Below the pieces are notes generated by a model. That model made no database searches. It was not told the DNA's origin and worked only from the letters and a program-made list of their open reading frames with translations. Shown piece by piece: positions 13,009 through 53,791 of a stretch of 64,000 nt of DNA. The stretch is from the IMG/VR virus record IMGVR_UViG_3300031669_000016, positions 1 through 64,000 of that record. The stretch is one strand, 5' to 3'. Numbering within the stretch: position 1 is the stretch's first letter; each line of letters begins with the position of its first letter. Made by a program: the position numbers and the translations under genes. Origin of the DNA: a virus.

Positions 13009-13586
13009 TGACACAACCAGCATACCGCGAAGCCTCGATTACAGAGCATGTGCGACAAAGCCTGGGCTTCCACATCCGCACCGGGACCGTGGAGACCTAT
13101 GACCTAGCGACTGGTGTATATGCCGAGCGGAAACTTACTGACATCGTACCCGGCATCATCATTCGACCTGCCTCACGCACCTACCGCGGCATGCCGACGA
13201 TTGATCTGCGGGACAACGAAGATCTCAAGCCCTATGTCACCTGGACGAAACGCGCCGACGGGCCGATTCAAGACGCGCTCTATGGCGGCGGACACAAAGA
13301 CGTCTCGTACTGGGAGATTGATGTGCGGCTCGGTGAGCAGACCGTGTTTCAACGTGACGCCGTCGAGGACTGGCTGACCGCGTTTTTGGGTGCCAAGGAA
13401 ACCAAGGACGTCTACTTCTACCATTACGATTCCGAGGCGGCACCCTCGGTGAGCCGAGGCGATGTGATCGCGACCATGCTGATTCAAGACGTGGTTAGCC
13501 AAGACCATCTTGACGTCGCCATGGCACGTGGCGAGGATAGCTGGTTGGTTCTCAACTTCACGGTCAAAGTACCAAAACTGGGGTGA
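13008..13586 (+). CDS. Putative tail terminator protein
   Basis: A 192-residue protein whose ATG 13008 overlaps the preceding TGA (TGATG) with GAGGGGG upstream. An open frame further upstream exists but lacks a ribosome site. The beta-rich sequence (DVSYWEIDVRLGEQTVFQ; DVYFYHYDSEA) and location as the last neck gene before the tail-tube region fit the tail terminator. Its GTG/TGA overlap with the glycosyltransferase at 13583 shows that the glycosylation block is translationally coupled to it. Confidence 0.5.
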   Translation: MTQPAYREASITEHVRQSLGFHIRTGTVETYDLATGVYAERKLTDIVPGIIIRPASRTYRGMPTIDLRDNEDLKPYVTWTKRADGPIQDALYGGGHKDVSYWEIDVRLGEQTVFQRDAVEDWLTAFLGAKETKDVYFYHYDSEAAPSVSRGDVIATMLIQDVVSQDHLDVAMARGEDSWLVLNFTVKVPKLG

Positions 13587-15097
13587 TTCGGTTGGGCAAA
13601 CCTATTAGGATAGGATGGTTCTCGGATTGGGCCTACGCACCCACCGGATTCGGGACTGTCGCACGTAATGTACTCACACGGCTCAACGCCATGCCCGAGT
13701 TCGAGGTCCGGCAACTTGCCATAGGCTATGATCCGTGGCAGGCCTTAGGAGCAGTCAAAGATCCGGTTCAGTATCGAGAAGCCGTTGATCGTTTCCGAGA
13801 CACGCGCGTCGACGGGTGGTCTCGTGATCTGCCAAGTCCGGTCGGCTTTCCATGCGATTCACCCCTTGATGCCAACGACTACGGACAGTCATCTCTGCAG
13901 CTCTGGATCGACCGCTTCGCCATAGACGTGCTGGTCTGCAACTTCGATCCGTGGATGACGGCGTGGATGCCGTGTCAGGGTACGCAGCAAAACCTTCGTT
14001 GTCCAGTCATCTACTACCAGCCCATTGACGGCGAGGTCTGGGGCCATCATCTCCCGATCCATCTCTTCAAGTTGCCGAAGCGGAGACTCGCCCGTATCGC
14101 CTGGCGTGACTTCATGCTGGCCCAAGAATACACCGTTCTCTACGGTGACTGGGCACGGCAACTATTCCTCGACGAACTCGATGAAGGTGAGCGCGCCAAA
14201 CTCGACGGCCGATTAGATGTCATCCCCCACGGCGTAGACCTCAAGACATTCGTGCCAGGATCGAAGATAGCGGCAAGGCAGACTCTTGGACTTCCAGAGA
14301 ACGCCTACATCATCGGAATGGTGGCGACAAATCAAGCGCGCAAGAACTGGCCCGATTTCCTGAAAGCGGTCGGCGCGTTCCTACACAGCCACCCCAATGC
14401 TTATCTTGTTCCCTGGACCGAATGGTTACCCTCTATGCCGGGTGGATGGGATCTGACACGTCTGATTCCACTGACCTGTCCGACAAAGCGGGTGGTACGG
14501 ATCGATCTCGCAATGGTAGATGAGACACCACCCGTCGAACTCCTCGCCACGCTGTATCAAGCCTTAGATGTCCACGTCTTATGGTCAATGGGTGAAGGCT
14601 GCGGACTTCCACACCTAGAGGCCCAGGCCTGTGGACGACCCAGCCTAGCAGTTGACTACGCCGGTGTCACCGACTACTTCTCTGATGACTACATGCGTGT
14701 GCCCTATACCGAAACGGTTACCGCATCAGGTAACTGCATCGAACGGGCGCGCGGCGATACCGGCATCTTACTGCAAAAACTGGCCCAGCTCTGTCACGAC
14801 CATGACTTGCGGGATCGTTTAGGGACCAATGCTGCGCACTATGCGCGTGCGCATTGGAACTGGGATCATATCGTGTTGCAATGGCGCGAACTGATCATGC
14901 GTGCGTACAAGGAGGGTCGTCGGTCATGCGATTCAGATGCATCGTCTGCGGCCGAATCGAATCCGGACAGTCCGATGGCTACACCTGCCTTGACTGTGAG
15001 CGTGGAGAGCGGAGACGTCTCCACTGCCGACGAGGAGGTGGGAAGAGGTGGAGAAGCCATGGCGCGGATCGGCCCCGTCTCGTCGCGCGCCAATTGA
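13583..15097 (+). CDS. Family-4-like glycosyltransferase (GT-B fold)
   Basis: A 504-residue protein. The N-terminal Rossmann domain starts IRIGWFSDW with APTGFGTVARN, typical of GT4 acceptor-side loops. The C-terminal domain has VIPHGVDLKTF, IIGMVATNQARKNW, and MGEGCGLPHLEAQACGRPSL, the E-x7-E-type donor-binding motif of GT4 enzymes. Residues after about 435 are a low-complexity serine/glutamate tail overlapping two other frames. GTG 13583 overlaps the previous stop. It probably modifies virion or host surface sugars in the cytoplasm, with donor unknown. It is the first of four glycosyltransferases in this block. Confidence 0.85.
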   Translation: MIRLGKPIRIGWFSDWAYAPTGFGTVARNVLTRLNAMPEFEVRQLAIGYDPWQALGAVKDPVQYREAVDRFRDTRVDGWSRDLPSPVGFPCDSPLDANDYGQSSLQLWIDRFAIDVLVCNFDPWMTAWMPCQGTQQNLRCPVIYYQPIDGEVWGHHLPIHLFKLPKRRLARIAWRDFMLAQEYTVLYGDWARQLFLDELDEGERAKLDGRLDVIPHGVDLKTFVPGSKIAARQTLGLPENAYIIGMVATNQARKNWPDFLKAVGAFLHSHPNAYLVPWTEWLPSMPGGWDLTRLIPLTCPTKRVVRIDLAMVDETPPVELLATLYQALDVHVLWSMGEGCGLPHLEAQACGRPSLAVDYAGVTDYFSDDYMRVPYTETVTASGNCIERARGDTGILLQKLAQLCHDHDLRDRLGTNAAHYARAHWNWDHIVLQWRELIMRAYKEGRRSCDSDASSAAESNPDSPMATPALTVSVESGDVSTADEEVGRGGEAMARIGPVSSRAN

Positions 15098-15189
15098 AGG
15101 AAGGGTCGTTGTTTTCCCCATCAAGAACGAGCGATACAGCGATGTCATCGCTTATCTCCAATCCTGGGACGGACGGGCGCGAGAGCTAG
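14926..15189 (+). CDS. Overlapping small zinc-ribbon ORF
   Basis: In a different frame from the glycosyltransferases, ATG 14926 is preceded by AAGGAGGG and opens MRFRCIVCGRIESGQSDGYT then CLDC, a clean two-CxxC zinc ribbon. Arginine-rich sequence follows to a stop at 15189. The first ~45 residues look like a real small protein; the rest overlaps the start of the next gene and may be uninformative. Three frames are open at 15048-15097. It could be a real overlapping gene, or the preceding glycosyltransferase may simply have lost its normal stop. Confidence 0.4.
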   Translation: MRFRCIVCGRIESGQSDGYTCLDCERGERRRLHCRRGGGKRWRSHGADRPRLVARQLKEGSLFSPSRTSDTAMSSLISNPGTDGRES

Positions 15190-15785
15190 TCGTCGTCGCC
15201 GACTGCAAGCCTCTCGTCAAGCAGGCCTTGGAGGGGTGCCGGTTTCCCGGTGGGCTTCGTATCTGGTACGTCGAACAGGACCACTTCCGCTACCGCGGCC
15301 TCTCCGGTGCTTATGAGCAAGGCGTTGTATTCGCGTTGACCCTGCCCATGGCAGAATGGGTCATAACCGTGGATTGTGGGACCTGGCAGCCATCCCAGAT
15401 CACTGCCGCACTTGATGCAACCGTATCGGAGCGTGCTTGGTTTGGTGTGCGTCCACTAACCGGTGGACGTTCCCGCCTCAAACTCTTTCTCACCCAATTC
15501 GGTGGCGCGCTGATCCGCCGTCGCACCGGTGTTGGCATAATCGATCCGACCTGCGGCTATCGGGCCTATGCGGCCGAGACACTACGCGAAATCGACTTCG
15601 CCGCCAACGGCGTCCCTAATCGGCTTTACCACGCCAAGCTCGCAGTACAAGTCCAGTGTGTTGTTGCCCTGGCCTACATCGGCGAGTTTCTCTGTACCCA
15701 CCGCCCGACTCCATCGAAGATGCGGCTGCGCGACGCAGTTACCGCGCTCTGGTACGTACTCCGAGGAGGGTTGGGTCATGTTTGA
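15048..15785 (+). CDS. Glycosyltransferase family-2-like protein
   Basis: A 245-residue protein from GTG 15048 with GAGGAGGTG upstream. It has the GT-A layout: beta strand with RELVVVADCKP, YEQGVVFALTLPMAEWVITVDCGTW, where VITVDCG occupies the DxD position with an altered second acid, then IDPTCGYRAYAAETL and a C-terminal basic segment. This pattern resembles polyprenyl-phosphate or dolichol-phosphate sugar synthases, but no membrane helix is present. The stop overlaps the next ATG (ATGTTTGA). Confidence 0.7.
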   Translation: MEKPWRGSAPSRRAPIEGRVVVFPIKNERYSDVIAYLQSWDGRARELVVVADCKPLVKQALEGCRFPGGLRIWYVEQDHFRYRGLSGAYEQGVVFALTLPMAEWVITVDCGTWQPSQITAALDATVSERAWFGVRPLTGGRSRLKLFLTQFGGALIRRRTGVGIIDPTCGYRAYAAETLREIDFAANGVPNRLYHAKLAVQVQCVVALAYIGEFLCTHRPTPSKMRLRDAVTALWYVLRGGLGHV

Positions 15786-16560
15786 TGGACTCGTCAGCGT
15801 TATTGTCACGAGTTGGAACCGTGAAGAGGTGGTTGACTGCCTTGTCTCGATCTCTCGCCACACCGACGAGACTACCTACGAAGTGATTGTGACCGACAAC
15901 GGGTCGGATGAGGGCTTGCAGCGAGAACTCCAAAAATGCCAGCACTGTGGTCTTATCAATAGGTTGCTGTTGCGATCGCCGGGAGACTGCCAGTCCTGGG
16001 CGGCATCAATGAACGAGGCTGTTCTGGCCAGTCAAGGCATGTGGCTGGTCGTTCCGAGCCTTGCCAACGACTTCATCGTCACCCCTAACTGGCTCGGCGC
16101 GATGGGGCAAGTTGCGCGGCGTGACGATGCTAGACGTGTCCACTGGGCATTCGCTGTGACTCAAGATGGACAGCAGATGCAGGCCGAGGGCTTCGGTGGC
16201 TATGTCTTAGAACCGGCGCGCTACGCCCACGATCCAAACGACGATCCCGACTACACCGGACACGCCTTGCTGCACCGCGGTCTGTGGGATGCGGTCGGTC
16301 CCTATGATACCCAGTTCGAGCCGATCTATATGGAGGATGTGGACTGGGGTATTCGACTCCACATGTACTTGTCCAGTGAGATCGATCCTGTAGCGGCCTT
16401 GCAGTACCGGCCCGCCATTCAACTCGTGCCCGACGCTGTTTTGATCCACACCAAGATCCATACCGTTCGAGGTCATGGTGCCGCGATGTGGGGTCGGAAC
16501 CGCGACCGACTCTTAGCGAAGTATCCAGCAATCAAACAAGCACTGGAGGCGCAGCGATGA
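15778..16560 (+). CDS. Glycosyltransferase family 2
   Basis: A 260-residue GT-A protein starting MFDGLVSVIVTSWNREEVVD, with VIVTDNGSDEG (nucleotide-sugar site), LANDFIVTPNWL in place of the DxD loop (N-D), and VGPYDTQFEPIYMEDVDW carrying the ED acceptor/catalytic motif common to rhamnosyl- and related GT2 enzymes. ATG 15778 with CGAGGAGGG upstream is the right start; the open frame extends further upstream inside the previous gene. It belongs to the coupled glycosylation block. Confidence 0.85.
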   Translation: MFDGLVSVIVTSWNREEVVDCLVSISRHTDETTYEVIVTDNGSDEGLQRELQKCQHCGLINRLLLRSPGDCQSWAASMNEAVLASQGMWLVVPSLANDFIVTPNWLGAMGQVARRDDARRVHWAFAVTQDGQQMQAEGFGGYVLEPARYAHDPNDDPDYTGHALLHRGLWDAVGPYDTQFEPIYMEDVDWGIRLHMYLSSEIDPVAALQYRPAIQLVPDAVLIHTKIHTVRGHGAAMWGRNRDRLLAKYPAIKQALEAQR

Positions 16561-16940
16561 CAGATGTGAAGCTTCGAGTCTGGGTTTCTGGCTTCGAGGA
16601 GACCTCTCTCATAGAGGCGGCGTTGAGTGATGTCGGTTTCATCCCAGTAGTCAATCGACCGCAGCGTGTAGTCGGTGGACACGGCCACGCCGGCGTCGAG
16701 CTCTGGAAAGAGGGGATCCGCCGCGCCGATATCGTTCTGATCAATGCGGAATGCCGCGGCATCGAGACCGGTATGGAGTTGATGTATGCCGTTGTCCTCA
16801 ACAAGATGTGTATCGTCGTCGGCGACACTGCCGCTGCAATGCCATGGCTGACCGTGCACTGCACCGCAACCTTCCCGACATGGCCGAGTGCCGTCGCCTT
16901 TTTGGGTGAGTACCAAAAGATCGGAGTTGAGCCATGCTAG
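16557..16940 (+). CDS. Nucleoside 2-deoxyribosyltransferase-like protein
   Basis: A 127-residue protein with ATG 16557 overlapping the previous TGA. It shows the nucleoside deoxyribosyltransferase/YtoQ-like pattern: RRADIVLINAECRG followed by IETGMELMYAVVLNKMCIVVGD, where GMELMYA matches the G-x-x-x-E-x-x-x-A active-site helix of the superfamily. It might process nucleotides or nucleotide-sugars for the neighbouring glycosyltransferases or for base modification; the substrate is unknown. Its stop overlaps the next ATG (ATGCTAG). Confidence 0.6.
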   Translation: MTDVKLRVWVSGFEETSLIEAALSDVGFIPVVNRPQRVVGGHGHAGVELWKEGIRRADIVLINAECRGIETGMELMYAVVLNKMCIVVGDTAAAMPWLTVHCTATFPTWPSAVAFLGEYQKIGVEPC

Positions 16941-17611
16941 TCGGTATGACCATACCGGTTCTCGTCAACTTCTCAGGCCTCATCGAACTGCTCAATACCG
17001 TCCGCACCGCACACAGCATCCGTTACCATATCGTTGATAATTCCACAGCCAATCACTCCGTGGCGGAGTCGTGGAATCTGGGTTGCCGCACCCTCTTCGA
17101 TGCGGGTTGCGATGTTGTCATCGTCGCCAACGACGACATCGTGTTGTGTCCACACAGCATCGACAACCTCGTTGACTGCTGGCGCGAAACCGATGCGTGG
17201 ATAGTGACAGCCGCCAACCTCCGCGGTGGACCCAGCTCAGAGCAGGTCAAGATAATGGTGCCCAAACCTCCCTATCGGGTCCATGCCCACCCTGACTTCA
17301 GCTTCTTTCTGTTGCCGCGCCACACATGGGACAGAGTCGGCGAGTTCGATGAGAACTTTCTACGCGCCTACTTCGAGGACAACGACTACCACGCCCGCGT
17401 CGTCCTCGCCGGTGGCACAGCTGTTTCAACCAGTGCCGCACCGATGTACCACTATGGTGGAGGCACCCAGAACCACGGTGTCACGCCTGTCGTGTCTGGA
17501 AACGAGTTCTCTGCAAACGCGGCCTATTTCCAGCGCAAATGGGGCCATGCCGTCGTCACCGAGGAGAGTTTGATGCGGCAGCATTACTATCCCACCCCGT
17601 TCAAACCATAG
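16934..17611 (+). CDS. Glycosyltransferase family 2
   Basis: A 225-residue GT-A protein. Markers are YHIVDNSTANHSVAESWNLG, VVIVANDDIVLCP (DD in the metal/sugar-nucleotide position) and RVGEFDENFLRAYFEDNDYH with the ED-D motif of GT2 enzymes. It is the fourth transferase of the block between tail terminator and tail tube, so its likely target is a virion protein such as tail tube or decoration protein, or a host glycan. Confidence 0.85.
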   Translation: MLVGMTIPVLVNFSGLIELLNTVRTAHSIRYHIVDNSTANHSVAESWNLGCRTLFDAGCDVVIVANDDIVLCPHSIDNLVDCWRETDAWIVTAANLRGGPSSEQVKIMVPKPPYRVHAHPDFSFFLLPRHTWDRVGEFDENFLRAYFEDNDYHARVVLAGGTAVSTSAAPMYHYGGGTQNHGVTPVVSGNEFSANAAYFQRKWGHAVVTEESLMRQHYYPTPFKP

Positions 17612-19764: not shown

Positions 19765-19924
19765 AATAGACTGGGTGTCTTTGTTTGGGGGCCATGTGAT
19801 ACCGCGCTACGATCTCTGGCAGGCTTTGGAGGAAATGGTCTACGGTCATTGCATCGCGGTTGAAGACAACCCAGCAATCGCTGATTATCTGAAGCGACAC
19901 CGCGCCAGACTCCGAGACATTTGA
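19490..19924 (+). CDS. Tail assembly chaperone T-like extension (frameshift product)
   Basis: The coherent frame from about 19490 encodes FVQALCDIARKQGQVPGWEG ... WISLFGGHV-like sequence and ends KRHRARLRDI at 19924. The frame is also open upstream to ATG 19427, but that start has no ribosome site. As in lambda gpGT, it would be made as an extension of the 18565 product and recruit tube subunits to the tape measure. Its TGA overlaps the following ATG (TGATG). Confidence 0.55.
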   Translation, partial: FVQALCDIARKQGQVPGWEGTSLLQIPANTMYLARRAWFWVDAKEALRQTTSLGHPRPPKWIISDYLTQFLDLVQRLPHPEEVGEYKTSAREIDWVSLFGGHVIPRYDLWQALEEMVYGHCIAVEDNPAIADYLKRHRARLRDI

Positions 19925-20691
19925 TGACTAAAAGAGATCCGGCCAAAAAGAAAGAGTATGATCAGCAATACTGCCTCCAGAATCAGGAGGCCATCCGTGC
20001 GAGGCATAAGGCATACTATGAAGCAAATCGAGATGCCATCGTCGTGAGACAGAAGGCATACTACGAGACAAACCGGGAGAATCTTCTGATACAAAGTCGG
20101 CAGTATCGTGAAGAGCACCGCGCTGAGTTGGGGATACAAGAGGCCATCTACCGTGAGAAGAATCGAGAAGCACTCCGTATAACAGCAAAAGCTTATCGGA
20201 GGGCGAATCCAGAAAAGGTGAAGGCGAAGAATGCTGCTTATTATCAGAAGAATCGAGATGCCCTTCGCGCGAAGCGGAAGATATATCGGGAGGCGAATCG
20301 GGAGGAACGCTGTATCGCGGCGAAGCGGTGGCAAGAGAACAACCCCGACAAATACGCAGCGATTCACCAAAGAAGCGAGCACCGCCGACGCGCCCGGCTT
20401 GCCAATGTTTCGGGTGAGTACACCCAAGAGCAGTGGTATCAAATACTTACTCGGTATGGTATGGCCTGTGCCAAGTGTGGGCGGTCTCTTACGCGACGCT
20501 CTGCAACTGTAGATCACTTCGTTCCAATTGTTGCTGGTGGTCCGAACTGCGCCGAGAACTTGCAACCGTTATGTAAATCATGTAACAGTCGTAAGCATAC
20601 TCGAATACCCACGTTTGAGGAACAGTTAGCATTCATCGCACGTCGCAAGGCACTAGGCCTTCCAGCCGCCTTGATCGCGGAGGTGCTCTAA
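19924..20691 (+). CDS. HNH endonuclease with eight helical 15-residue repeats
   Basis: A 255-residue protein. The N-terminal ~150 residues consist of about eight 15-residue repeats with consensus YYEANRDA-x7, a basic helical array that probably tracks DNA. The C-terminal HNH domain has CAKCG...ATVDHFVPIVAGG...NLQPLCKSCNSRK, with the zinc cysteines and the DH catalytic pair. It sits between chaperone and tape-measure genes in the same orientation. It is probably a free-standing homing endonuclease, paralogous to the next gene. Confidence 0.85.
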   Translation: MTKRDPAKKKEYDQQYCLQNQEAIRARHKAYYEANRDAIVVRQKAYYETNRENLLIQSRQYREEHRAELGIQEAIYREKNREALRITAKAYRRANPEKVKAKNAAYYQKNRDALRAKRKIYREANREERCIAAKRWQENNPDKYAAIHQRSEHRRRARLANVSGEYTQEQWYQILTRYGMACAKCGRSLTRRSATVDHFVPIVAGGPNCAENLQPLCKSCNSRKHTRIPTFEEQLAFIARRKALGLPAALIAEVL

Positions 20692-20692
20692 G

Positions 20693-21178
20693 ATGCCACT
20701 CAAAGATCCTGTCAAGCGAAAGGAATATCGACGGCAATGGCGCCTCCAGACCCGGGATGCCCGTCACGCGACAGAGAAAGTATGGCGGGAAGCGAACCGG
20801 GATGCCTGTCGCGCGAAAAAGAAAGTGTGGCAGGCAGCGAACCGGGATGCCCGTCGAAGGGGTGCACAGCGGAGGCGCGCTTGTATTACCAATGTTCCGG
20901 GTGAATACACCAAAGATGAATGGCAGGATGTGCTTGTCCGATACGGCATGACTTGTGCTATATGCGGACATCCCTTTACAGCGCGGTCCGCGACAGTAGA
21001 CCACTTTGTTCCTCTGAGTGCGGGTGGTCCTGCCTTTATTAGTAATATTCAACCCCTGTGTAAATCATGCAACAGTCGCAAGGGTAGTCGGATACCTACG
21101 TTTGAGGAACAACTCGCATTCATCGCTCATCGAAAGACGCTAGGCCTTCCAGCCGCTTTGGTCGCGGAGGTGCTCTAA
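20693..21178 (+). CDS. HNH endonuclease, shorter paralogue of the preceding gene
   Basis: A 161-residue protein with the same N-terminal DPVKRKEYRRQW start and only about two of the 15-residue repeats, then CAICG...ATVDHFVPLSAGG...NIQPLCKSCNSRK and an almost identical C-terminus (LGLPAAL-x-AEVL). ATG 20693 follows GGAGGTGCTCTAAG, the same junction that precedes the tape measure. It probably arose by duplication of the upstream gene with loss of repeats. Confidence 0.85.
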   Translation: MPLKDPVKRKEYRRQWRLQTRDARHATEKVWREANRDACRAKKKVWQAANRDARRRGAQRRRACITNVPGEYTKDEWQDVLVRYGMTCAICGHPFTARSATVDHFVPLSAGGPAFISNIQPLCKSCNSRKGSRIPTFEEQLAFIAHRKTLGLPAALVAEVL

Positions 21179-21179
21179 G

Positions 21180-24100
21180 CTGCCAAGCGCTCAATATTCC
21201 TATTTGCTCGGAATAGGCTTGGACCCGGTCACCGTCCAAAGGCTGCAGGCACAGCTAATCCAGCTCGCCCAGCAGGCCTCGAAAGTCGGTACGGCCCAGG
21301 CGCGTACCACTGTGGGTGTCACCCCACAGCAAACCACCGCAACCCAACGCGCCACACGTCAGGCCGCGGCTGGCTTTGCTACTACAAGTAAGCAGGCTAC
21401 GCAGGCAACCCAAGCAGTCAAAGGCTTCGGTGGCGCGATGCAAGAGGCGGGTCGCGGAATCTCTCATGCCGCGGGCAAGGTCCTTCTGTGGAGCGTGGCA
21501 ACAGGTGCGATCTACGGTTCACTGCAAGCCCTCCGCGGTGCTGTCGAGACCATCAACGACGTGGACTTCGCGTTGACTGGTTTGAGGAAGGTATACGCCG
21601 GAAACATCGCTGATCTCGGTCAGATGAAGAGGGCCGCGGTCGATATGGCGATGGCTTATGGTTCTGGAATCTCCGACGTCCTGAATGGTATGCGCGACTG
21701 GGCTCGGCAGGGCTACCGTGCTCGTGATGTAATCGAGTTGACAAGGGTTAGCTTGCTTGCCCAGAACATCGCCGAGATGGATGCTGTACAAGCAACCCGC
21801 TACTTGACGGCGGCCCTGAATCAGTTTGATCTTGAGGCCACTCAAGCAATTACTGTCCTCGACACGTGGAACGAACTAAGCAACCGCTATGCCGCAACGA
21901 CGCAGGACATCGCGGAAGGCACTGCCCGCCTCGGCCGCACCGCCCACGATGCTGGCCTCTCGATCCAAGAAGCCAGCGCGATGGTCGCCGTTCTAGTCGA
22001 GCAGACGAAGCGATCGGGCCAAGAAATCGGAACGGCGATGCGTACCGTTCTGACCTACGCCTATCGCGAGCGCAACGTCAAAGAGCTTGAGAAGATCGGC
22101 ATTTATGTTCGCCGTGAGCGGGGCGAACTGCTGGCTATGATGGACGTTTTGACGCAGCTATCTGTCAAGTGGGAGGTACTTAGCGATACCCAGCGTCAGG
22201 CCATTGCTGAAGCCTTCGGCGTGCGGCGGGTCACCGAGTTCCGGACCCTAATCCAGGGCATGCCCGCCATCCTTGAGGCGACGCGCATCGCGTATGACAG
22301 CCAAGGCTCCGCGTTGCGGGAGAACATCATCTTTCTGGATTCCCTGCAGGTCCGTTATGGGCGGTTGAAGGCCGCGCTTCAAGCACTCGCGGTCGGAACG
22401 GAAACGCAGGATACGTTGAAGAGCATTGTCAGCGTACTCACCAGCCTCGTTACCGTTGTCGATAAGGTTGGCATCAAGACCATCTTCGCTGCGGGCGCTC
22501 TGGTTCTGATCACGCGCTACACCCAAGCCTACTCGGCCGCGCTGATTACGTTCCATACCCAAATGGTTTTGGGCACACAAGCAGTAGCGGCAGGTACGGT
22601 GACAATGGCGGCATGGCAACTCCAGGTCAATGCTGCAACACTTGCCCTGCAGCGATTCTGGGTCACACTTGGTCCTGTTGGTTGGGCCGTGGCCGCTGTT
22701 GGTGTTGCTTTCGGGACTTGGAAGGCCATTGATGCTTATGTTTATCGCCATGAGCGTGCGGCACGTGGACTGGAGCGACAGGCCGAGGACATTGAGCAAA
22801 CAACCCTGGAGGCGCTTCGCCGCGAAGAAGCTGGCTACCGCGCCCAGGTCGACGCGTTGACGCGGCGTGCCGAACTGATCCAATCCTTACGTGATCAGTA
22901 CGAAGCGGTTGGAAAGAGTACTGATAAGGCCGCGGACAAGCAAAAGCAGATGGCGAAGATCCTCGAACTGCTTCAAGCCGCAACGGGTGATGCCAGCTTA
23001 GCTTTACGCGACGGCTTAGCTCCCGCATTTGGCATCGTCGAGCGCGCCGCACAGAGCGCTCTTATCGGCATTACCGATGCGATGGACAAGATGCGGGCCA
23101 GTATTGCCCAAACACTGCGGGGACAAATCCAGGGTATTAGGGGCGATATCGAACTGCGCAGAGATGCCGTCGATAACTTTGCGAAGGCCGCGGAGAGAGA
23201 ACGCAAGACGGTCCTTGGCATGTTCGACACTATTGCTAAGGGGCAGAAGCTGTATGTTGACCCCTTTGCCGGTGTGGATCGAAAAGATGCCGAGGCTGTG
23301 TTGTCTCGGACACATGAGATGAAGGATCTGTCCGGCCTGCAGACCGGTGTTACCAACAGGCTCAGCAATGCGGTGGGTGAGTACAACGTTGCGGCGGGTC
23401 GTCGAATCGAGTTGGAGGGTACACTCAAGACCACTGAACAAGCCCTACTCGAACTCGAAATGGAACGCGCCGATCTTCCCAAAAGGATCGTATCGGATCC
23501 GGATCCGCTCGGCACTAAGAAAGCTGGTAAGAGCCTCCGCAGTTATCAGAATCAGGTCCGATCCGTTATCAATCTGGTACGCGAACTCCAACAGGCGATG
23601 CGGCGTATGGGCGCGGAAGGTCTCGGGCCGTGGTATCAAGAAATCCAACGCTTCGACCAGACTTGGGAGGATATGCAGGACCGCGCGCTGATGGCGTTGG
23701 ACCAGATCAATGAAACCTTGTCCGAAGATATCCCGGCACAGGCGCGCAAAGCCCTGCTTGGGGCACGTGACGAACTGGTCGGCGTGCTCAACACCTTCGC
23801 TACTCAATATCCCCTAGAGTTCCAGCGCGCATGGGAACGTGCACTGCATATCATCCGCGGCGGTGCTGAGGCATTACAGTTCCAGCTCCGTGAGTACCGC
23901 GAAGAGTTGGAGAAGACCCTAGCCGATTGGGTTCGGCGCGGTAAGATCACGCCCGACCAGGCAACGGAGATGCAACGGCTCGCCACGCTGACCAAGCAAT
24001 TCGAGGTCATCTCTAAGAGTGCCGATCTGCTGGAACGGCAGTACCAGTTCGAACGACAAATCACAGAACTCGAAATGGGGAAGGGTTGGGAGTTCTCGCG

Positions 24101-34245: not shown

Positions 34246-35580
34246 CTACTTCTCCACCCGCAACGCTTCGGGCAAGGTTTGCTGGATGAGCTGGTCGAAG
34301 GTTTCTGTCACCGGTGTGTGTACCGTGAACTCGCGCACATCTACACGATCATACTTCGGTTTTGGTGAGAGGTAGAGGGGCCACCTGGATGTGAAGCCAA
34401 TCTTCGGGTTGTGGAAGAGTAGGCCTTGTGTGGCCTGACTAGCCGCACGCATCTTCCCAATCGAGTACTTCGAACCGGGTACCCAAGTCCCGTTCATAAT
34501 CCATCCCGGTGTTTCGGCATAGCGGTGGTGGTGCCCCACGATCACTGAGTCGTACACCAATCCGGTAAGATCGATCCATTCGGCACGCGCCCTATCCAAT
34601 CCGTAGTAAGGGATGCGGTTCCATGCTCGAATGTCTTGGCCATGGCTGACCAGATAGTTCCACGGCTCGTCGCGATCTACAGAGGGTTCGGAGAAGGCCA
34701 CGAATGGGGACCGGCTGAGATGCAAGCGGATGTGGGGTTGATCACGTAGCAGGAGCTGTACCATCATGTAGACCATACGATCCGCATTGAACGTGGTCGT
34801 CTGTGTTCGGCCATGGTTGCCATCGCAGGCAATGATCTCGATCTCCTCGAACAAGGTCCCGCAATGCAGCGCCATGTCGGCAAGAATGTAGGCGGCGAGG
34901 GAGATCTGCTCCATGAAGAGATCGTCGAGTTCGGCGAACTGCTTGGGATAGATATCTTCACCTGTCGGGAAGTCACCGATCCACGGCATGATGCAGCGCC
35001 GAACGTCCACCGCGCTACGTACTACGGCGAGGCAGTCGGCAAGATTGGTCTTCCAACGTCTGATCTCGTCGAATAGGATGCTTTTGTTGAACGCGGTGAG
35101 TCCTGCTGTTTCCTCTCGGGTATGGAACGCGCCGACATGCATGTCCGAAACGATGGGCATGGCAAACTCGGGCAGGCGTTGCTTCGCGTCTTTGACCGGT
35201 TTGATGTGGGGGATCTTGATCGGCTCGAAGCTTTGCAGGCAGGACTGTATGGTATCGACGAAGATCTCTTCCCATGCCGCGGCGCGCCGCGCCTTACGCT
35301 CCGCAGCCACTAACTTGCCTTTGAGTTCTTGTATCGATGGCGGTACGGGAGCTGGTGGCGGTACCGAATCGGCACTCACCAACTCAATTGATGCATCGAT
35401 CTCCCCAGCCTCGATCATTCGGGCAAGACGGAACCGTAATGCCGAAACGGTCTTGCATCCCAACACTTTGTAGTAGCGGCGTGCCCACTCCTCGCGTGTG
35501 ATGTCCTCAGCTACCGGAGGATTGGCTTTGTAGGCGCGCCGGATGATCTCGTTCAGAACGGCGTTTGGCTTACCTGACAC
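34246..35580 (-). CDS. Calcineurin-like metallophosphoesterase with N-terminal helical domain
   Basis: A 444-residue protein. Residues 1-60 look like a winged-helix or HTH segment (WARRYYKVLGCKTVSALRFR), followed by a coiled linker. The C-terminal phosphoesterase has the metal motifs SDMHVG (around 145-150), GDFPTGED, CDGNHGR, a histidine in VSHGQD and VGHHHR, matching the D-x-H / GD / GNH / H / GHxH series. Start is GTG 35580 with AAGGAGTGG. The substrate may be nucleic acid or nucleotide. It is distinct from the SbcD homologue at 42372. Confidence 0.8.
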   Translation of the reverse strand: MSGKPNAVLNEIIRRAYKANPPVAEDITREEWARRYYKVLGCKTVSALRFRLARMIEAGEIDASIELVSADSVPPPAPVPPSIQELKGKLVAAERKARRAAAWEEIFVDTIQSCLQSFEPIKIPHIKPVKDAKQRLPEFAMPIVSDMHVGAFHTREETAGLTAFNKSILFDEIRRWKTNLADCLAVVRSAVDVRRCIMPWIGDFPTGEDIYPKQFAELDDLFMEQISLAAYILADMALHCGTLFEEIEIIACDGNHGRTQTTTFNADRMVYMMVQLLLRDQPHIRLHLSRSPFVAFSEPSVDRDEPWNYLVSHGQDIRAWNRIPYYGLDRARAEWIDLTGLVYDSVIVGHHHRYAETPGWIMNGTWVPGSKYSIGKMRAASQATQGLLFHNPKIGFTSRWPLYLSPKPKYDRVDVREFTVHTPVTETFDQLIQQTLPEALRVEK

Positions 35581-35594
35581 ATCTCACCACTCCT

Positions 35595-36581
35595 TCATAA
35601 CGCTTTCTGATAGGCATCGTACAGCAGTTTCCCGGCTCGCTTCCATGTAAAGTTATCTCGGATATGCCGCGCCAGCGACTCGTTGCGACGGGGCCATCGC
35701 GACATCGCCACTTCCCAAGCTGTGCGCGTCGCAACTACATGAGTCTCGGGGTAACCGGCACGTCCGTAGTGGGCGTAGTCGCCGAGGTATTCTTGTATCG
35801 CTGGAATGTCTGTGGTCACGACCTCACAACCAGTGATGCCAGCTTCGAGGTTGGTCAGACCGGGATTATCGTAGTGTGTGGGTAGGACGCTTACTGCCGC
35901 ACCGGCGAACCAGTGCATTATCTCGCTGTGAGGACGCGCGCCCATAAGATGGATCCAGGGTCGCCCCTCCGCGATCTGTTCACAACGCGCATAGACCGGA
36001 TGGCGGCAATCGCCGATGCAGTAGATTGGGAACTTCAGATCTGCGTCAACCATGGCCTGAAGGAACTTATCCTGTGCCTTCCTGTCCTCGTAGCGCGCGG
36101 CGAGGATGACATAGGGTTCGTGTGGTACGACCCCATAGTCGGGTTGTGCTAAGTACCAATCCGCGGGCGCGCCTGTCGGAATCCAGATGCTCTTCGCCTC
36201 TAACACATCGGCAGGCAGGCCGAGATCATAGGCGAGTTCGAATGGTTCGCGATGGATGTTGATGAAGAGGAAACGGGCCTGCAACGCGATCTCGGCACAG
36301 CGTTCACGTGAAATGAAAAAGATGCCAGGACTGTGGATGGTCTGGATGACCAGCGGTACACCGCGTTCCTTAGCGATCTGAGCGGCTTGATCCGCTTCTT
36401 GTAGGATGATGTTGAAGGCGTGAACCAACTGGAACTGTTCTCGCCGCCAATCGACGTCGTGACAATGGATCACTTCAACATCGGGTGGGAGATGTTGCCG
36501 TAACATCTTCCGCTGCGTCTCATCGCCGCCCTGATGCGCCCCCTTCTCGTATGGAGTGCGGTTGACGGTCAGTACCCTCAT
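35595..36581 (-). CDS. Family-4-like glycosyltransferase
   Basis: A 328-residue GT-B protein. The N-terminal domain starts MRVLTVNRTPYEKGAHQGGD; the C-terminal domain includes YVILAARYEDRKAQDKFLQA and YDNPGLTNLEAGITGCEVV, the donor-binding E-rich motif of GT4 enzymes. Its ATG overlaps the upstream phosphatase stop. A diverged copy of its first 18 codons lies beyond that phosphatase gene at 37373-37429, implying the phosphatase was inserted at the start of this gene. Confidence 0.8.
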   Translation of the reverse strand: MRVLTVNRTPYEKGAHQGGDETQRKMLRQHLPPDVEVIHCHDVDWRREQFQLVHAFNIILQEADQAAQIAKERGVPLVIQTIHSPGIFFISRERCAEIALQARFLFINIHREPFELAYDLGLPADVLEAKSIWIPTGAPADWYLAQPDYGVVPHEPYVILAARYEDRKAQDKFLQAMVDADLKFPIYCIGDCRHPVYARCEQIAEGRPWIHLMGARPHSEIMHWFAGAAVSVLPTHYDNPGLTNLEAGITGCEVVTTDIPAIQEYLGDYAHYGRAGYPETHVVATRTAWEVAMSRWPRRNESLARHIRDNFTWKRAGKLLYDAYQKAL

Positions 36582-37372
36582 ACCATTTCATCTGGCTGAT
36601 CAAAGAATAGCTCAACAGTGCCCGTTCTTGGGTTCCTACATCCAACAGTCATACCGCGCCTATCCCCAGTCGCCAGAACTACGCGCTGATACTCCATTGG
36701 ATCATTGGGTTGTCCGAATTGGCTCCGCCAATCCCAATATCGGAAGGCCACTTTTCCCGCGTCATTCAGATTTGCGTAGCTATAATCCGCTGGGACATTG
36801 CCCTCGTATAGTAGGTAGCGACTACTTTCTTTGGCCGAACACCCCGAATCGTTCATCCAGGAGGCTTTTAGACAGCCCCCCAACTTCCGACAATAACGGC
36901 GACGGGGTACCAGTACACCGCTGAGATACGCATCGATTGAACATGTGTAGCAACGCGGAAGTTTGTCCTTGCCGATGGTGGCGGCAATCTGATATTCAAT
37001 GCCCTTCCCATAGCCAAGACACCGCAGCACAGCATATGCAAGGGATGGTGAACGTGCCCTACCAGCCATGCAATGAATCAGCAGTTTGTGTGTCTGTCCG
37101 CTCAGGGCACCCAATGCAAAGTCCAATGCCGACTCTAAGAGTTGGGGGGTCCATGGCATTCTATCATCTTCCAAGTTGATACGATGCAATCGAACGTTGT
37201 GTGTCCGCGCCCAAGAGACTTCGGCGTCTGGCCCATTCTCGTGGCATCTGTCATTGTCATGGAAGAACGCGATGATATAGGTGAATCCTTCATGGACGAG
37301 GCGTTCCATATCGCTTTGGTGGCCGATACAGCCAGAGATCGCAAGTTGCTTTGTGAGTCGGATGATGTTCAT
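36578..37372 (-). CDS. Dual-specificity protein phosphatase-like protein
   Basis: A 264-residue protein. The catalytic P-loop H100-C101-MAGRA-R107-S fits CX5R of cysteine phosphatases, preceded by LHRINLEDDRMP (general acid region, D around 70) and a C-terminal helix. Residues about 150-264 are an unassigned extension with several cysteines. It would dephosphorylate protein, RNA 5' ends or a nucleotide. It lies between the sigma factor and a glycosyltransferase, and the remnant next to it marks it as a cassette acquisition. No ribosome site stands before ATG 37372. Confidence 0.75.
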   Translation of the reverse strand: MNIIRLTKQLAISGCIGHQSDMERLVHEGFTYIIAFFHDNDRCHENGPDAEVSWARTHNVRLHRINLEDDRMPWTPQLLESALDFALGALSGQTHKLLIHCMAGRARSPSLAYAVLRCLGYGKGIEYQIAATIGKDKLPRCYTCSIDAYLSGVLVPRRRYCRKLGGCLKASWMNDSGCSAKESSRYLLYEGNVPADYSYANLNDAGKVAFRYWDWRSQFGQPNDPMEYQRVVLATGDRRGMTVGCRNPRTGTVELFFDQPDEMV

Positions 37373-37429
37373 CTAGCCTCGGTGCGCGCCTTTCTCGAAT
37401 GGTGGACGATTGATAGTCAGGACTTTCAT
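37373..37429 (-). pseudogene. Remnant of a glycosyltransferase N-terminus (18 codons)
   Basis: From ATG 37429 the frame reads MKVLTINRPPFEKGAHRG and stops at TAG 37375-37373. The intact glycosyltransferase starts MRVLTVNRTPYEKGAHQG, so 13 of 18 residues match. The remnant's ATG overlaps the sigma-factor stop (ATGA), indicating that a glycosyltransferase once followed the sigma gene directly before the phosphatase cassette came in. Confidence 0.75.
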
Positions 37430-38010
37430 GGCTGAAGACGCTCCCTTACACGTTGGAGTCGACGCCGCGTCTTACGCAGCACACGGTACAAGGCGGGATC
37501 CTTGGTTATTTCCTCGCCTGCCAACAAGCGCCCCAACGCATCCAATTCGATGTCTGTGAGATGTGCCTTGATGAAGATCTCCTCCAAAGCTATCCTGTCC
37601 AGAACTACCCGTTCTGGATCTGCCGAGCCATCAACACACAAGGTTTCGCGCTGGTTCTCATCAAAGTCTTCTAGCGCCACGATCTGCGGGATGCGATCGG
37701 TGCGGCTGTCTCGAAAAACTGAGCTGGGTATTCGTATCAGGAAGGAGTGGCGGAGCCGCCATTTCTGTATCGCTCGTGTTGCAGTCTTTTTCAGATAGGC
37801 CCCTTGCTGTGCCATCGGTCGTGTTGTGTCCAGTCGGTTGCGCACCGCATCCATAATTGCTACGCGGCCCACCTGCGCGAGGTCTTCCTGTTTGTCCCGA
37901 TCAGTTGTGAGTCTGCGTGCCTCGCGCTGCAATACCTTGTCGAAGCATGCCAGCCAGTAGTCCAGTACGGCGGGATCGTTGGTGCCGCGCTGTTTCGACT
38001 GACCAGCCAA
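37426..38010 (-). CDS. RNA polymerase sigma-70-family factor (phage-encoded)
   Basis: A 194-residue protein. Region 2 is visible in QEDLAQVGRVAIMDAVRNRL (about 41-60), then YLKKTATRAIQKWRLRHSFL and IRIPSSVFRDSR, the order of sigma regions 2.1-2.4 and the start of 3 (R-x-P-SSV). A C-terminal helical domain (TDIELDALGRLLAGEEITKD ... RKTRRRLQRVRERL) is in place of region 4. Such small phage sigmas redirect host polymerase to phage promoters. TTG start overlaps the previous TGA. It could alternatively be an anti-sigma-insensitive sporulation-type sigma relative. Confidence 0.7.
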   Translation of the reverse strand: MAGQSKQRGTNDPAVLDYWLACFDKVLQREARRLTTDRDKQEDLAQVGRVAIMDAVRNRLDTTRPMAQQGAYLKKTATRAIQKWRLRHSFLIRIPSSVFRDSRTDRIPQIVALEDFDENQRETLCVDGSADPERVVLDRIALEEIFIKAHLTDIELDALGRLLAGEEITKDPALYRVLRKTRRRLQRVRERLQP

Positions 38011-39021: not shown

Positions 39022-39400
39022 ACCAGCATCCTCGCGCGCGTAGGAGTGACTGTGTGGTATACCATAGTAATCGTGCCCTCGCGCGCGTGGAAGTAACCAA
39101 CAGTAAGGCGGCAACGGAACCGGCGAGGTCGTCGTGCCCTCGCGCGCGTGGAGGTAACGTGTGGCGCGTTGGGTTTCTGTGGTTTGCTGGTCGTGCCCTC
39201 GCGCGCGTGGGAGTAACGGCCAATATCCTACCCATCTTAGGCAACACATCGTCGTGCCCTCGCGTGCGTGGAAATAACCGCCCTTGTTTCGTCACTGAAG
39301 GCGGTCCAACCGTCGTGCCCTCGCGCGCGAGGGAGTAACCCGGAGGCCGCCAGGAAGAGGGGGAATCCAGAGGTCGTGCCCTCGCGCGCGAGGGAGTAAC
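39022..39400 (-). CRISPR. Mini CRISPR array, six repeats plus one degenerate repeat
   Basis: Six 28-nt repeats lie at 39070-39097, 39131-39158, 39190-39217, 39251-39278, 39312-39339 and 39373-39400. Spacers are 33, 31, 33, 33 and 33 nt and share no obvious sequence. On the plus strand each repeat begins GTCGTGCCCTCGCG and ends TAAC; the two nearest the effector carry the perfect palindrome CCCTCGCGCGCGAGGG, the others vary at 2-5 positions. A degenerate repeat (39022-39050) and a short ~20-nt spacer (39051-39069) end the array distally. Decay away from the effector gene suggests leftward transcription, with the leader on the effector side. Confidence 0.93.
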
Positions 39401-39534: not shown

Positions 39535-40899
39535 CTATTTAGCCCCCACTCTCAACGCTCCAAAGGAGCGGTGGAACCCTCGATAGCCTCCTGATGTATT
39601 CCACTCCGCCTTGCGATAAAACGCCCGCCGAGCGATGTTCACAGCAGCTGCCTCGTCGGCGTCGAAATTGACATCACAAGCCGGACAGTAGAGATCTTCA
39701 CCTTCCCGTTTGGCATCCTCCCCACACCGAGGACAAATCAACGATGAGTAAGCAGCGAAGACCTCGCGTGGTGGTAACATACCAGCCATCCGCAACTTGT
39801 AGCTGAGGATATGACCCATCTTGGCATACTGGGAACGTATAAATGCGCCGCTTGTCTGTAGGTTGAGATCTTCCATCACTACCAACGAGTGGTGCTCAAC
39901 GGCCAACGCAACCAACGCATTGGCGATTGTGTGGAGCATCTGCTCTTGGTGTCGACGCTGCCAGGCTTGACGACGCACATGCCGACCACGCCTCTGTGCG
40001 GCCTGGCGCTTCCGTCCCAATAGGATCTGTAGAGGACGCACGTCCCGACCAAGGCTCCCAACTCTGAGTGGTCGACCCTCTTTGTCTATGATTGCGTATG
40101 CCGCCTGTTTGATGATGCCGCGATCAACTCCAAGATAGGTTTCCTCTTCACCCCGCTCCATACTCTCGACTTGGAACTCGAAGCTTATATGTAGGAAGTA
40201 CTCGCCATCGCGCCGACAAAGGCAGGCACAGCGCGCCTTCCCTTTCGTGAGATATTCCTCTTCGTGCCATATCCCAAACGCGAGTGGGAAACGCAACCTT
40301 GTAGGCTTCTGTGGCTTCGGCTGCACCGGTAGTGATACCACCCACTTCTCGTTGTCGAGTCGTTCGAGAGCAAAATCTCGGGCGCGTACATAGAGAAGCG
40401 GCCTGACAATCTCGCGCTCCTCACGTAGCAGACGGGATTGCCACGCTTGGTGGTCGAATGGATCACCAACCCACTCAGCGGCCTCTGCAAGGGCCTTCTG
40501 GTACCCATCAGACTGATATCCGTACAGTGGTGAGGGGTACTGGGGTTCATCAGTTGCGTCCTCATGGTTCTTCCTATCTTCCCAGGCCTGTCGTAGTTTG
40601 CAGTACGAAACAAGGTTCGTTAGGATATCTGATACTAAGCCGTCATATAGAGCGCTTGGCAAATCCGTTGCTGATAGCAAAGGACGGATTTCCTTCATTG
40701 CATTGAAGGGGCTGGGGAGTCTCTTACCATCGTGGAGATCACGAATCCACAGATCAGCCATGGGGCGGCAGCGCTCCAATGTATCTATATAGGCCTTGCT
40801 GTAACGGGCGAATACCTGGTCTAGGAGGGCACGTTTTCCAGTACCGGGATTGTATAGTTTGAGGATGGCTGTTTTCTGTACGATGACTGTGCACCTCAT
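39535..40899 (-). CDS. Compact RuvC-family RNA-guided nuclease (TnpB/Cas12-like effector)
   Basis: A 454-residue protein. N-terminal strand CTVIVQKTAILKLYNP and helical REC-like part (residues 20-185), a second beta segment (185-245), then a RuvC nuclease: GVDRG with D259, VMEDLNL with E343, a zinc ribbon C389-PRC...C405-PAC, and FDADEAAAVNIARR with D415. All three acidic catalytic residues and all four cysteines are present, unlike dead effectors of the Cas12k/Cas12m kind. Length is between TnpB (~400) and Cas12f/Cas12n-size proteins. The gene is followed in the same direction by hairpins and a CRISPR array, favouring a type V-U-like effector over a plain IS TnpB; no transposase or element ends were seen. 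Confidence 0.85.
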   Translation of the reverse strand: MRCTVIVQKTAILKLYNPGTGKRALLDQVFARYSKAYIDTLERCRPMADLWIRDLHDGKRLPSPFNAMKEIRPLLSATDLPSALYDGLVSDILTNLVSYCKLRQAWEDRKNHEDATDEPQYPSPLYGYQSDGYQKALAEAAEWVGDPFDHQAWQSRLLREEREIVRPLLYVRARDFALERLDNEKWVVSLPVQPKPQKPTRLRFPLAFGIWHEEEYLTKGKARCACLCRRDGEYFLHISFEFQVESMERGEEETYLGVDRGIIKQAAYAIIDKEGRPLRVGSLGRDVRPLQILLGRKRQAAQRRGRHVRRQAWQRRHQEQMLHTIANALVALAVEHHSLVVMEDLNLQTSGAFIRSQYAKMGHILSYKLRMAGMLPPREVFAAYSSLICPRCGEDAKREGEDLYCPACDVNFDADEAAAVNIARRAFYRKAEWNTSGGYRGFHRSFGALRVGAK

Positions 40900-51196: not shown

Positions 51197-53791
51197 TCAA
51201 CCCTCCCCGACCAACGATTCGATACGGGATATGCGTTCGTGCAGTTCGGCCAGGATCTGTCCGAATCCGCTGCTGATTTCGAGACAGTTCACCTCCCGCT
51301 CCGTACCAGTAATGTCATGGACCGCGGCGGTGTAGCCGGTTGTACCGGCCCGAGCGGCCTGTCCGTCATCAGGCGAGGGGGGTATCGCCTGAGATGTGGC
51401 CGCTGGCGGCGGTGTCACAGGAGCTGGCGGGAGCGGCTCCACTGCCTCTGGGGCTGACACTGCCTCTGGCACTACCGACTGAGCTGCTGACGCAGCCTCC
51501 GGGTCCACCGACTCTGGTGTAGGAATCGGAGCGGGAGGTGGCGGTTGCGACGCGCCGGGAGGCGCTTGTGACACGCAGGGATGCGCTTGCGACGCGCCGG
51601 GAGGCGCTTGCGGCTCGATAGGAGCAGACGGCGGCGCTTCCGATGCAACAACGGTTGGAGCTGGGGCAGCAGGCTTCTCGATCCCACTTACTACGCGATA
51701 GAGATCCCAGCAGCCCTTGCAGTCCCTGCGTGGCTTGCGCAAGCCGCGATAGCGCGGATGCTTCTCACACTTAGCGGGTCCGGCAGGCACCGCTTCTTCT
51801 GGTTCAGATGCCTCAACCACAGGTCCCGCTGTCGGTGCGAGCGGTGCGTCCGGTGCGTCATCACGCACGATGAGTTCGCTGTGCGGATCCTTGGCAGGAT
51901 CGAACCAGGCGGGTGGATCCAGTAGCGTGATCTGGTACTCGCCTCCGTCCCGCGACTGGCGCGGGATCGAAGTGATAAAGTGGATCTTACCCACATCCCC
52001 CTCGGTCGGGTCCGAATCGTAGACCGCGATCTTGGGCTGCCACCTGTCAACATCGGGCGCGGTCTTGGGAACGCTGGGATTGAGGACATATTCGAGCATG
52101 CGGCAAATCATCCCGGTGGGCAGTTCGAACCAGACACCCGGCGGGCAGTCCCTGCGAGTCCACGTCCTTACAATCTTCATCTCGGAATCACCCCGTTCTA
52201 TGAGTAGTTTACCACAACCTACGGTAGGTGTCAAGACCTTGTGGTTAGCGATGTAGAGTCCTACGGTTGTGCCGAGCCGTTCCTCGATCATGCCGACATA
52301 CTTCTCTGACAGTTCGATGCCTATAAACGAGCGGTGGAGGTTGCGTGCCGTCTGCATCGTCGTACCCGAACCGGCGAAGGGATCGAGAACCACACCTGGG
52401 ATCGTCTCAGCATTGCAGTGGCAGGTCGGCCGCATCGGAAGGGAACGGTACAGATTCTGCAAGCTCTGCTGAGTATTGTACGGCGAGCCGTCAGCGTTGG
52501 TTTTGGACCAACGCCGCTGGAACCGCCCGACGAGTTCGCGTTGTCGAAGCCAGGGCGCGCCGCATTGAGCACACACCTTCTCGGACGAACCGGCGAGGAT
52601 TGGGGGTGTGATAAGCTCGGGGGGAAATACTGCGAAATGAGCGCCTTTATAAGGCCTCGTTGCGATGTGCCAGACCGAACGTTTGTTGCGACCACCAGGG
52701 GCCGACCTAGCAAAGTTCTCCAGGGCCTTCCGCGCCGAACGGTTTGGATTCGTGCCGTGAGCGTAATCCTTGGGGCCGCCGGTCTGCTGATCAAAGGTTG
52801 GCTGTTGGATACATCCGATGCTTGACTCTGCAAGTGGCTCTTTGATCGCGTCGTAATCGTAGTAGTAGTCATGCGCTTGATACAGGTTCTTTCGACGCCA
52901 CAACTTCTTTGCTAAGGTCTCCGATACGGGACAGTACGAGCAGACCTCACCGGTCAAGCGGTGGACCCAGACATAGTCTGGTTCGGGGCGGGTTCGAGAG
53001 CCGCGCTTACGTGGATGGCTCCAAAACGTCGTCGATCCCGACTTCGCGAGCTGAAAAACGAACTCGTGAGATCGGGTAGTGCGATCAGTGGTGCTGTCGG
53101 GCATCGGATTTTTTTTGTCCCACACATTGTCTTGGCGCAGCCACCAACCATCGTCGCGTAGTGCAAACGCAACCATGTGGGGCAGACCGATCAGATCCTT
53201 GGGTTTGTAGCGAGTAGTACTGGTCGGCTGCATAGCTGGCACACCATTCCGCGCCGCCGACTTCGAGAGTCCGGGGTTGCGGTGATGCGGCTTATGTGCA
53301 CCGCCGCTTGCCCAGTAAGCATCGCCCATGTTGATCCAAACCGTGCCGTCGGGCCGTAGCACCCGCCAGACTTCACGGAAGATCTCGACGAGATGGGCAA
53401 CATACAACTCTGGTGTGGGTTCCAATCCCAACGACCCCAGCCAGGCTCCGCAGTTGGCACAGAACGCGCTTCCAGTCTGGCGGTCGTGGTAGTCCACACT
53501 GAACGAGCCGGGGTGTGTCAACTGCTTCGCCGAGGGTCCTCCTGACTGGTTGGGTCGTGCCGTCCGTTCCGTTATCCATTGATGATCGCACAGTTCTCCG
53601 TCGTGCTGGGATGGATCATCCTCATCCCACACAATGGGTGGCAAGCCGTAGTCGCGGTGGGGCCAGTACGGTGGTGAGGTCATAACCATATGGACCGATT
53701 CGGGCGGCATGAGCCACAGCGCGTCGATGACGTGTCCACAGCAAACCTTGTCAACCCACAAACGAATCAGTTCGGCATACATCGAGAACAC
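51197..53791 (-). CDS. DNA methyltransferase fused to proline-rich adaptor protein
   Basis: An 864-residue open frame. Residues 1-510 are an N4-cytosine/N6-adenine methyltransferase of beta order: VHMVMTSPPYW (catalytic motif IV at 36-43) precedes the SAM motif DPFAGSGTT (about 470-478) and GIELSEKY. From M538 (ATG 52180, with GGGGTGA upstream) a second module begins: a beta domain (MKIVRTWTRRDCPPGVWFEL), a zinc-knuckle CEKHPRYRGLRKPRRDCKGC, proline/alanine-rich repeats, and a coiled-coil end. It probably protects phage DNA from restriction; the second half may be made separately. Confidence 0.8.
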   Translation of the reverse strand: MFSMYAELIRLWVDKVCCGHVIDALWLMPPESVHMVMTSPPYWPHRDYGLPPIVWDEDDPSQHDGELCDHQWITERTARPNQSGGPSAKQLTHPGSFSVDYHDRQTGSAFCANCGAWLGSLGLEPTPELYVAHLVEIFREVWRVLRPDGTVWINMGDAYWASGGAHKPHHRNPGLSKSAARNGVPAMQPTSTTRYKPKDLIGLPHMVAFALRDDGWWLRQDNVWDKKNPMPDSTTDRTTRSHEFVFQLAKSGSTTFWSHPRKRGSRTRPEPDYVWVHRLTGEVCSYCPVSETLAKKLWRRKNLYQAHDYYYDYDAIKEPLAESSIGCIQQPTFDQQTGGPKDYAHGTNPNRSARKALENFARSAPGGRNKRSVWHIATRPYKGAHFAVFPPELITPPILAGSSEKVCAQCGAPWLRQRELVGRFQRRWSKTNADGSPYNTQQSLQNLYRSLPMRPTCHCNAETIPGVVLDPFAGSGTTMQTARNLHRSFIGIELSEKYVGMIEERLGTTVGLYIANHKVLTPTVGCGKLLIERGDSEMKIVRTWTRRDCPPGVWFELPTGMICRMLEYVLNPSVPKTAPDVDRWQPKIAVYDSDPTEGDVGKIHFITSIPRQSRDGGEYQITLLDPPAWFDPAKDPHSELIVRDDAPDAPLAPTAGPVVEASEPEEAVPAGPAKCEKHPRYRGLRKPRRDCKGCWDLYRVVSGIEKPAAPAPTVVASEAPPSAPIEPQAPPGASQAHPCVSQAPPGASQPPPPAPIPTPESVDPEAASAAQSVVPEAVSAPEAVEPLPPAPVTPPPAATSQAIPPSPDDGQAARAGTTGYTAAVHDITGTEREVNCLEISSGFGQILAELHERISRIESLVGEG
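51547..51609 (-). repeat. Three tandem 21-bp repeats in the adaptor's proline-rich region
   Basis: Units at 51547-51567, 51568-51588 and 51589-51609; the first and third are identical, the middle differs at five positions. They encode seven-residue repeats of type SQAPPGA in a flexible linker. Confidence 0.75.
52178..52194 (-). promoter_or_regulatory. Internal ribosome binding site and start inside the methyltransferase frame
   Basis: GGGGTGA (52194-52188) stands 7 nt before the in-frame ATG 52180-52178. The same GGGGTGATTCC box precedes the GTG start at 42096, so it is a functional type in this genome. Separate synthesis of the C-terminal 327-residue adaptor is likely. Confidence 0.5.

Follow-up and report, generated by a model that had tools for sequence, protein, structure and literature searches.

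A remnant of a glycosyltransferase gene start lies beside an inserted phosphatase gene in a phage operon

Gene content of the locus

The viral genome record IMGVR_UViG_3300031669_000016, from a metagenomic phage, comprises 75,174 bases, and the window analysed here covers its bases 1-64000. The locus lies within a minus-strand operon in which, in order of transcription, a sigma-factor-like gene is followed by an 18-codon open reading frame (the stub), a phosphatase gene, a glycosyltransferase (GT) gene and a gene for a metallophosphoesterase-like exonuclease (Table 1). The stub opens with an ATG that overlaps the TGA of the sigma-like gene (ATGA) and encodes MKVLTINRPPFEKGAHRG. Its TAG is followed directly, and in the same frame, by the ATG of the phosphatase, whose own TGA overlaps the ATG of the GT gene (ATGA), each phosphatase junction being an overlap or abutment of genes. 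The GT, which begins with MRVLTVNRTPYEKGAHQG, is assigned to the GT4 family by matches to Glycos_transf_1 (40.4 bits) and Glyco_trans_1_4 (35 bits), both above their cut-offs of 27 and 26.4. A preliminary description had placed a stub, a phosphatase, a GT and an overlap with the sigma-factor stop at this locus, and every element was found in its place; the stub beside an inserted phosphatase is real.

Table 1. Features of the operon segment around the phosphatase gene, in window coordinates
Feature	Position	Strand	Description
Sigma-factor-like gene	37426..38010	-	194 aa, SigE-like; weak Sigma70_r2 match, below the Pfam curated cut-off
Stub, 18 codons	37373..37429	-	Remnant of GT gene 5' end, ATG 37429 to TAG 37373; strong Shine-Dalgarno AAGGGAG upstream
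Left copy of the 54-nt segment common to stub and GT start	37376..37429	-	39/54 nt
Dual-specificity/tyrosine-type phosphatase	36578..37372	-	264 aa, low GC, intact HC-X5-R
Right copy of the 54-nt segment, the first 18 codons of the GT	36528..36581	-	39/54 nt
GT4-family glycosyltransferase, intact	35595..36581	-	328 aa, core-like composition
Metallophosphoesterase-like exonuclease	34246..35580	-	

The stub and the start of the GT are identical at 13 of 18 residues and 39 of 54 nucleotides, and the similarity ends at codon 18, which is the boundary with the phosphatase. When the first 18 residues of the GT were compared with every 18-mer of the six-frame translated record (about 150,000 windows from 75,174 bases), the GT itself scored 18, the stub 13 and the next window 7, making the stub the single best non-self match. 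Two independent E-values for the match, 6e-4 and 2e-4, leave uncounted that it begins at codon 1 and adjoins the GT gene. The stub is thus the 5' end of a GT gene, as the preliminary description had it. No second gene-end remnant of this kind was found among repeated protein segments of the 542 open reading frames of at least 50 aa in the record. We also considered TAG recoding, with the stub as a read-through N-terminus of the phosphatase, and ruled it out because this phage uses TAG as a normal stop codon, with 12 of 42 listed genes ending in it.

Identity and arrival of the phosphatase

The phosphatase carries the HC-X5-R signature as HCMAGRAR at residues 100-107. Its score against Pfam DSPc (PF00782) is 23.3 bits, relative to a curated cut-off of 33.5, and the nearest chains among solved structures belong to dual-specificity phosphatases (E 6e-4); the C-terminal ~130 residues matched no family in Pfam or PHROGs. 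Among 50,697 annotated phage records there was one distant match, to an uncultured phage of 595 kb, with 31% identity across 120 residues. Since this sole homologue aligns from residue 1, the annotated ATG is probably the native start. A structure prediction run without an alignment was too poor for use (mean pLDDT 42). Only phosphatase families matched the insert clearly, with no recognisable nuclease, in agreement with the earlier statement that the insert is a phosphatase and not a homing nuclease.

In composition the phosphatase (GC 0.516, GC3 0.534, codon fit -0.026) is set apart from the sigma-like gene (0.562, 0.613 and 0.032) and from the GT, which is core-like (0.568, 0.640 and 0.089). 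Of all 795-nt windows, only the lowest 0.23% are equally poor in GC, and at 200-nt sampling the only other stretch as GC-poor lies at two HNH endonuclease genes. The composition and codon use of the phosphatase resemble those of these HNH genes and of a Cas12/TnpB-like gene.

The translation signals tell of the same order of events. The predicted Shine-Dalgarno duplex energy is -8.7 for the stub, -5.9 for the phosphatase and -2.4 for the GT. The strong site of the stub lies in the last part of the sigma-like gene, while that of the phosphatase, CGAGG, falls within stub codons 17-18. The GT does not stand out in having a weak site, since weak Shine-Dalgarno sequences also precede certain other genes of the phage. 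The former start position of the GT is now held by the stub, and the GT's own Shine-Dalgarno serves the stub. Together, the foreign composition and the Shine-Dalgarno stranded before the stub mark the phosphatase as a newcomer within the GT start, bearing out the view that it arrived later.

Several further features of the record were observed. The Cas12/TnpB-like gene (454 aa; 39535-40899, minus strand), whose best NCBIfam match is Cas12e/CasX, below cut-off, adjoins a CRISPR-type array at window positions 39070-39400 with six 28-nt repeats (GTCGTGCCCTCGCGCGCGAGGGAGTAAC and decayed forms) and spacers of 31-33 nt. Spacer 2 (39159-39189) matches positions 21327-21357, with two mismatches, in a large gene of the phage itself (21204-25904), which suggests that the array may target a related phage or be self-directed. 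A DNA methylase gene (51197-53791) shows a gap of roughly 200-270 residues between its PHROG and Pfam matches, which may reflect an intein or an inserted domain. Two proteins resembling tyrosine recombinases share 24% identity and are encoded at record positions 63403-64353 (minus strand) and 65224-66396 (plus strand), the second past the end of the window.

Divergence of the two gene starts

By a Nei-Gojobori count over the 18 codons to which the comparison extends, the stub and the GT start differ at 10 of 13.2 synonymous sites and at 5 of 40.8 nonsynonymous sites (Fisher p = 2.6e-5, on rounded counts). Synonymous sites are near saturation and nonsynonymous sites are mostly kept, which indicates that the two copies diverged for a long time as functional coding sequence. 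The stub would most likely be the start of a different GT allele, with one allele contributed by each recombination parent, and on the sequence evidence we lean towards reading the locus as a mosaic recombination scar between two diverged versions of the GT.

The preliminary description had instead proposed that the end was duplicated upon insertion, the phosphatase entering the GT start, 54 nt being copied and the stub drifting since. Such an event would account for the anatomy and for the foreign composition of the phosphatase, but the codon divergence contradicts a fresh duplicate: in simulations of unconstrained substitution, five or fewer residue changes arose in 0.2-0.6% of runs (P about 0.002-0.006 for neutral drift). 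We regard simple insertion as very unlikely.

The same codon signal could equally come from a lost tandem GT paralogue or from selection on the stub itself. In the former case the phosphatase would have displaced the first of two diverged tandem GTs, apart from its first 18 codons. This would explain the divergence under coding constraint just as well, and the phage has several further glycosyltransferase genes; against it, the record holds no third GT with the same N-terminus, and both a duplication and a replacement are required. We consider it a credible though lesser possibility. A cluster of glycosyltransferase genes, for its part, occupies window positions 13583-17611 among seemingly structural genes.

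Selection on the stub would be expected if it were a maintained leader cistron, of whatever origin, that feeds ribosomes to the phosphatase through termination-reinitiation, with either its peptide or its frame under selection. The strong Shine-Dalgarno ahead of the stub, the ATGA overlap with the sigma-like gene, the TAG immediately before the phosphatase ATG and the phosphatase Shine-Dalgarno inside the reading frame all fit this role, as does the unchanged stub in two assemblies that are themselves nearly identical. A leader would have no reason, however, to resemble the start of the neighbouring GT, and no Rfam element was found in the region; we judge a leader cistron unlikely.

Proposed origin of the locus and related systems

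For the favoured origin as a recombination scar, we propose the following course. In an ancestor, the GT4 gene would have come immediately after the sigma-like gene, overlapping it by ATGA and having its Shine-Dalgarno within the final part of that gene. A recombination event involving another phage would then have placed the beginning of a donor phosphatase gene behind codon 18 of the resident GT. A second crossover, within or beyond the homologous GT, would have brought in the phosphatase along with the 5' portion of the diverged donor GT. Of the resident start, 18 codons would thereby be left as the stub, and the intact GT would bear the donor start. Translation would now pass by coupling from the sigma-like gene through the stub and the phosphatase to the GT. 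The anatomy, the foreign composition of the phosphatase, the divergence under coding constraint and the Shine-Dalgarno stranded before the stub are observed; we infer which copy was resident, the type of both crossovers and the coupling. The match unique to the stub, the codon divergence, the foreign GC of the phosphatase, the Shine-Dalgarno energies and a phage precedent described below speak for a scar, while the collections searched, which held no informative relative, the 18-codon extent of the divergence test and the chance-level microhomology at the junctions weigh against it.

Beyond the 54-nt stub, breakpoint homology, suggested earlier as a check, was not significant. The 7-bp sequence AGATGAA occurs at both ends of the phosphatase, and random positions yield a match of this length in 5-7% of comparisons (P about 0.05-0.07), so we claim no homology beyond the 54 nt; nor do we for TCAGCCA, of equal length, which precedes both starts.

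The only other carrier of the locus found was IMGVR_UViG_3300031673_016576, with an identical structure. It differs at 2 of 13,535 bases, none of them in this locus, and is effectively the same phage. Viral contigs scanned with the GT, the phosphatase, the sigma-like factor, a DNA-polymerase profile, GT DNA motifs and a phosphatase profile returned nothing beyond the phage itself, remote polymerase relatives and chance hits; a metallophosphatase alignment proved too diverged to serve as a query. A search of 48 polymerase-related viral records and two phage records with the GT and the sigma-like factor produced a single match, weak and partial, to the GT; protein searches of annotated phages and plasmids gave partial, distant matches at most, and the GT, the sigma-like factor and a neighbouring GT2 gene had no matches in the 50,697 annotated phage records. 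Genome contigs matched neither the GT nor the CRISPR-type repeat. An empty-site relative, a stub-type GT allele and a phosphatase-GT pair were each absent from the collections searched, negatives that are no proof of non-existence, and these searches pointed to neither a host nor a close named relative.

The precedent comes from mycobacteriophage Island3, in which genes 67 and 68 have 18 C-terminal residues and 60 bp in common and the extra gene is absent from a close relative; its authors propose recombination between ~50-bp sequences (PMC3029335). In both phages a gene end of about 50-60 bp is found on each side of an extra gene, here as 54 nt with 39 identical. The shared ends are 3' in Island3, whereas they are 5' here, and neither an empty-site relative nor one whose repeat exists as a single recombinant copy was found in the collections searched for the present phage. 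The phosphatase also resembles a phage moron (PMC3029335), being a gene of composition unlike the rest of the phage between two adjoining phage genes, but it is packed into the operon by its ATGA and TAG-ATG junctions; for a comparison of presence and absence, only the near-identical second assembly was found.

In fungal mitochondria, mobile ORFs (Allomyces atp6; Glomus atp6, atp9, cox2 and nad3) bring in a foreign gene end (PMC3630166), and the copies at Glomus atp6 share 63.5% identity at the DNA level and 91% at the protein level (PMC3630166). As in our locus, the incoming ORF carries a diverged copy of the end of its target gene, and the native end remains as a remnant. Those elements involve homing endonucleases and C-termini, unlike the phosphatase and N-terminus seen here. 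The insert shows no recognisable nuclease of the sort that marks a homing-endonuclease-type insertion. The preliminary description had further held that one duplicated-end pattern is common to homing nucleases and cargo genes; in this phage the sole nuclease case found with repeated ends is the adjacent pair of low-GC HNH genes (window 19921-20691 and 20693-21178; 57% identical over 162 aligned residues), which are tandem paralogues and so lend that claim no support.

More broadly, phage cargo genes might spread as cassettes that carry the diverged start of the next gene and so remake a working copy of it, a generalisation that we hold to be doubtful. If it were true, a short translated remnant would preserve the translational coupling of the operon, and the cassette would be a nuclease-free counterpart of the fungal mobile ORFs. 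The cleanly preserved scar documents a known process, phage mosaicism, and calls for no new mechanism, the course of events proposed above being our reconstruction. Phage mosaicism is usually deduced by comparing genomes; here one genome bears its own scar, and since a diverged copy of a gene start lies on each side of an acquired gene, the history can be read in part from codon divergence alone. The locus suggests a route by which a tightly overlapping operon could gain a gene without losing ribosome access.
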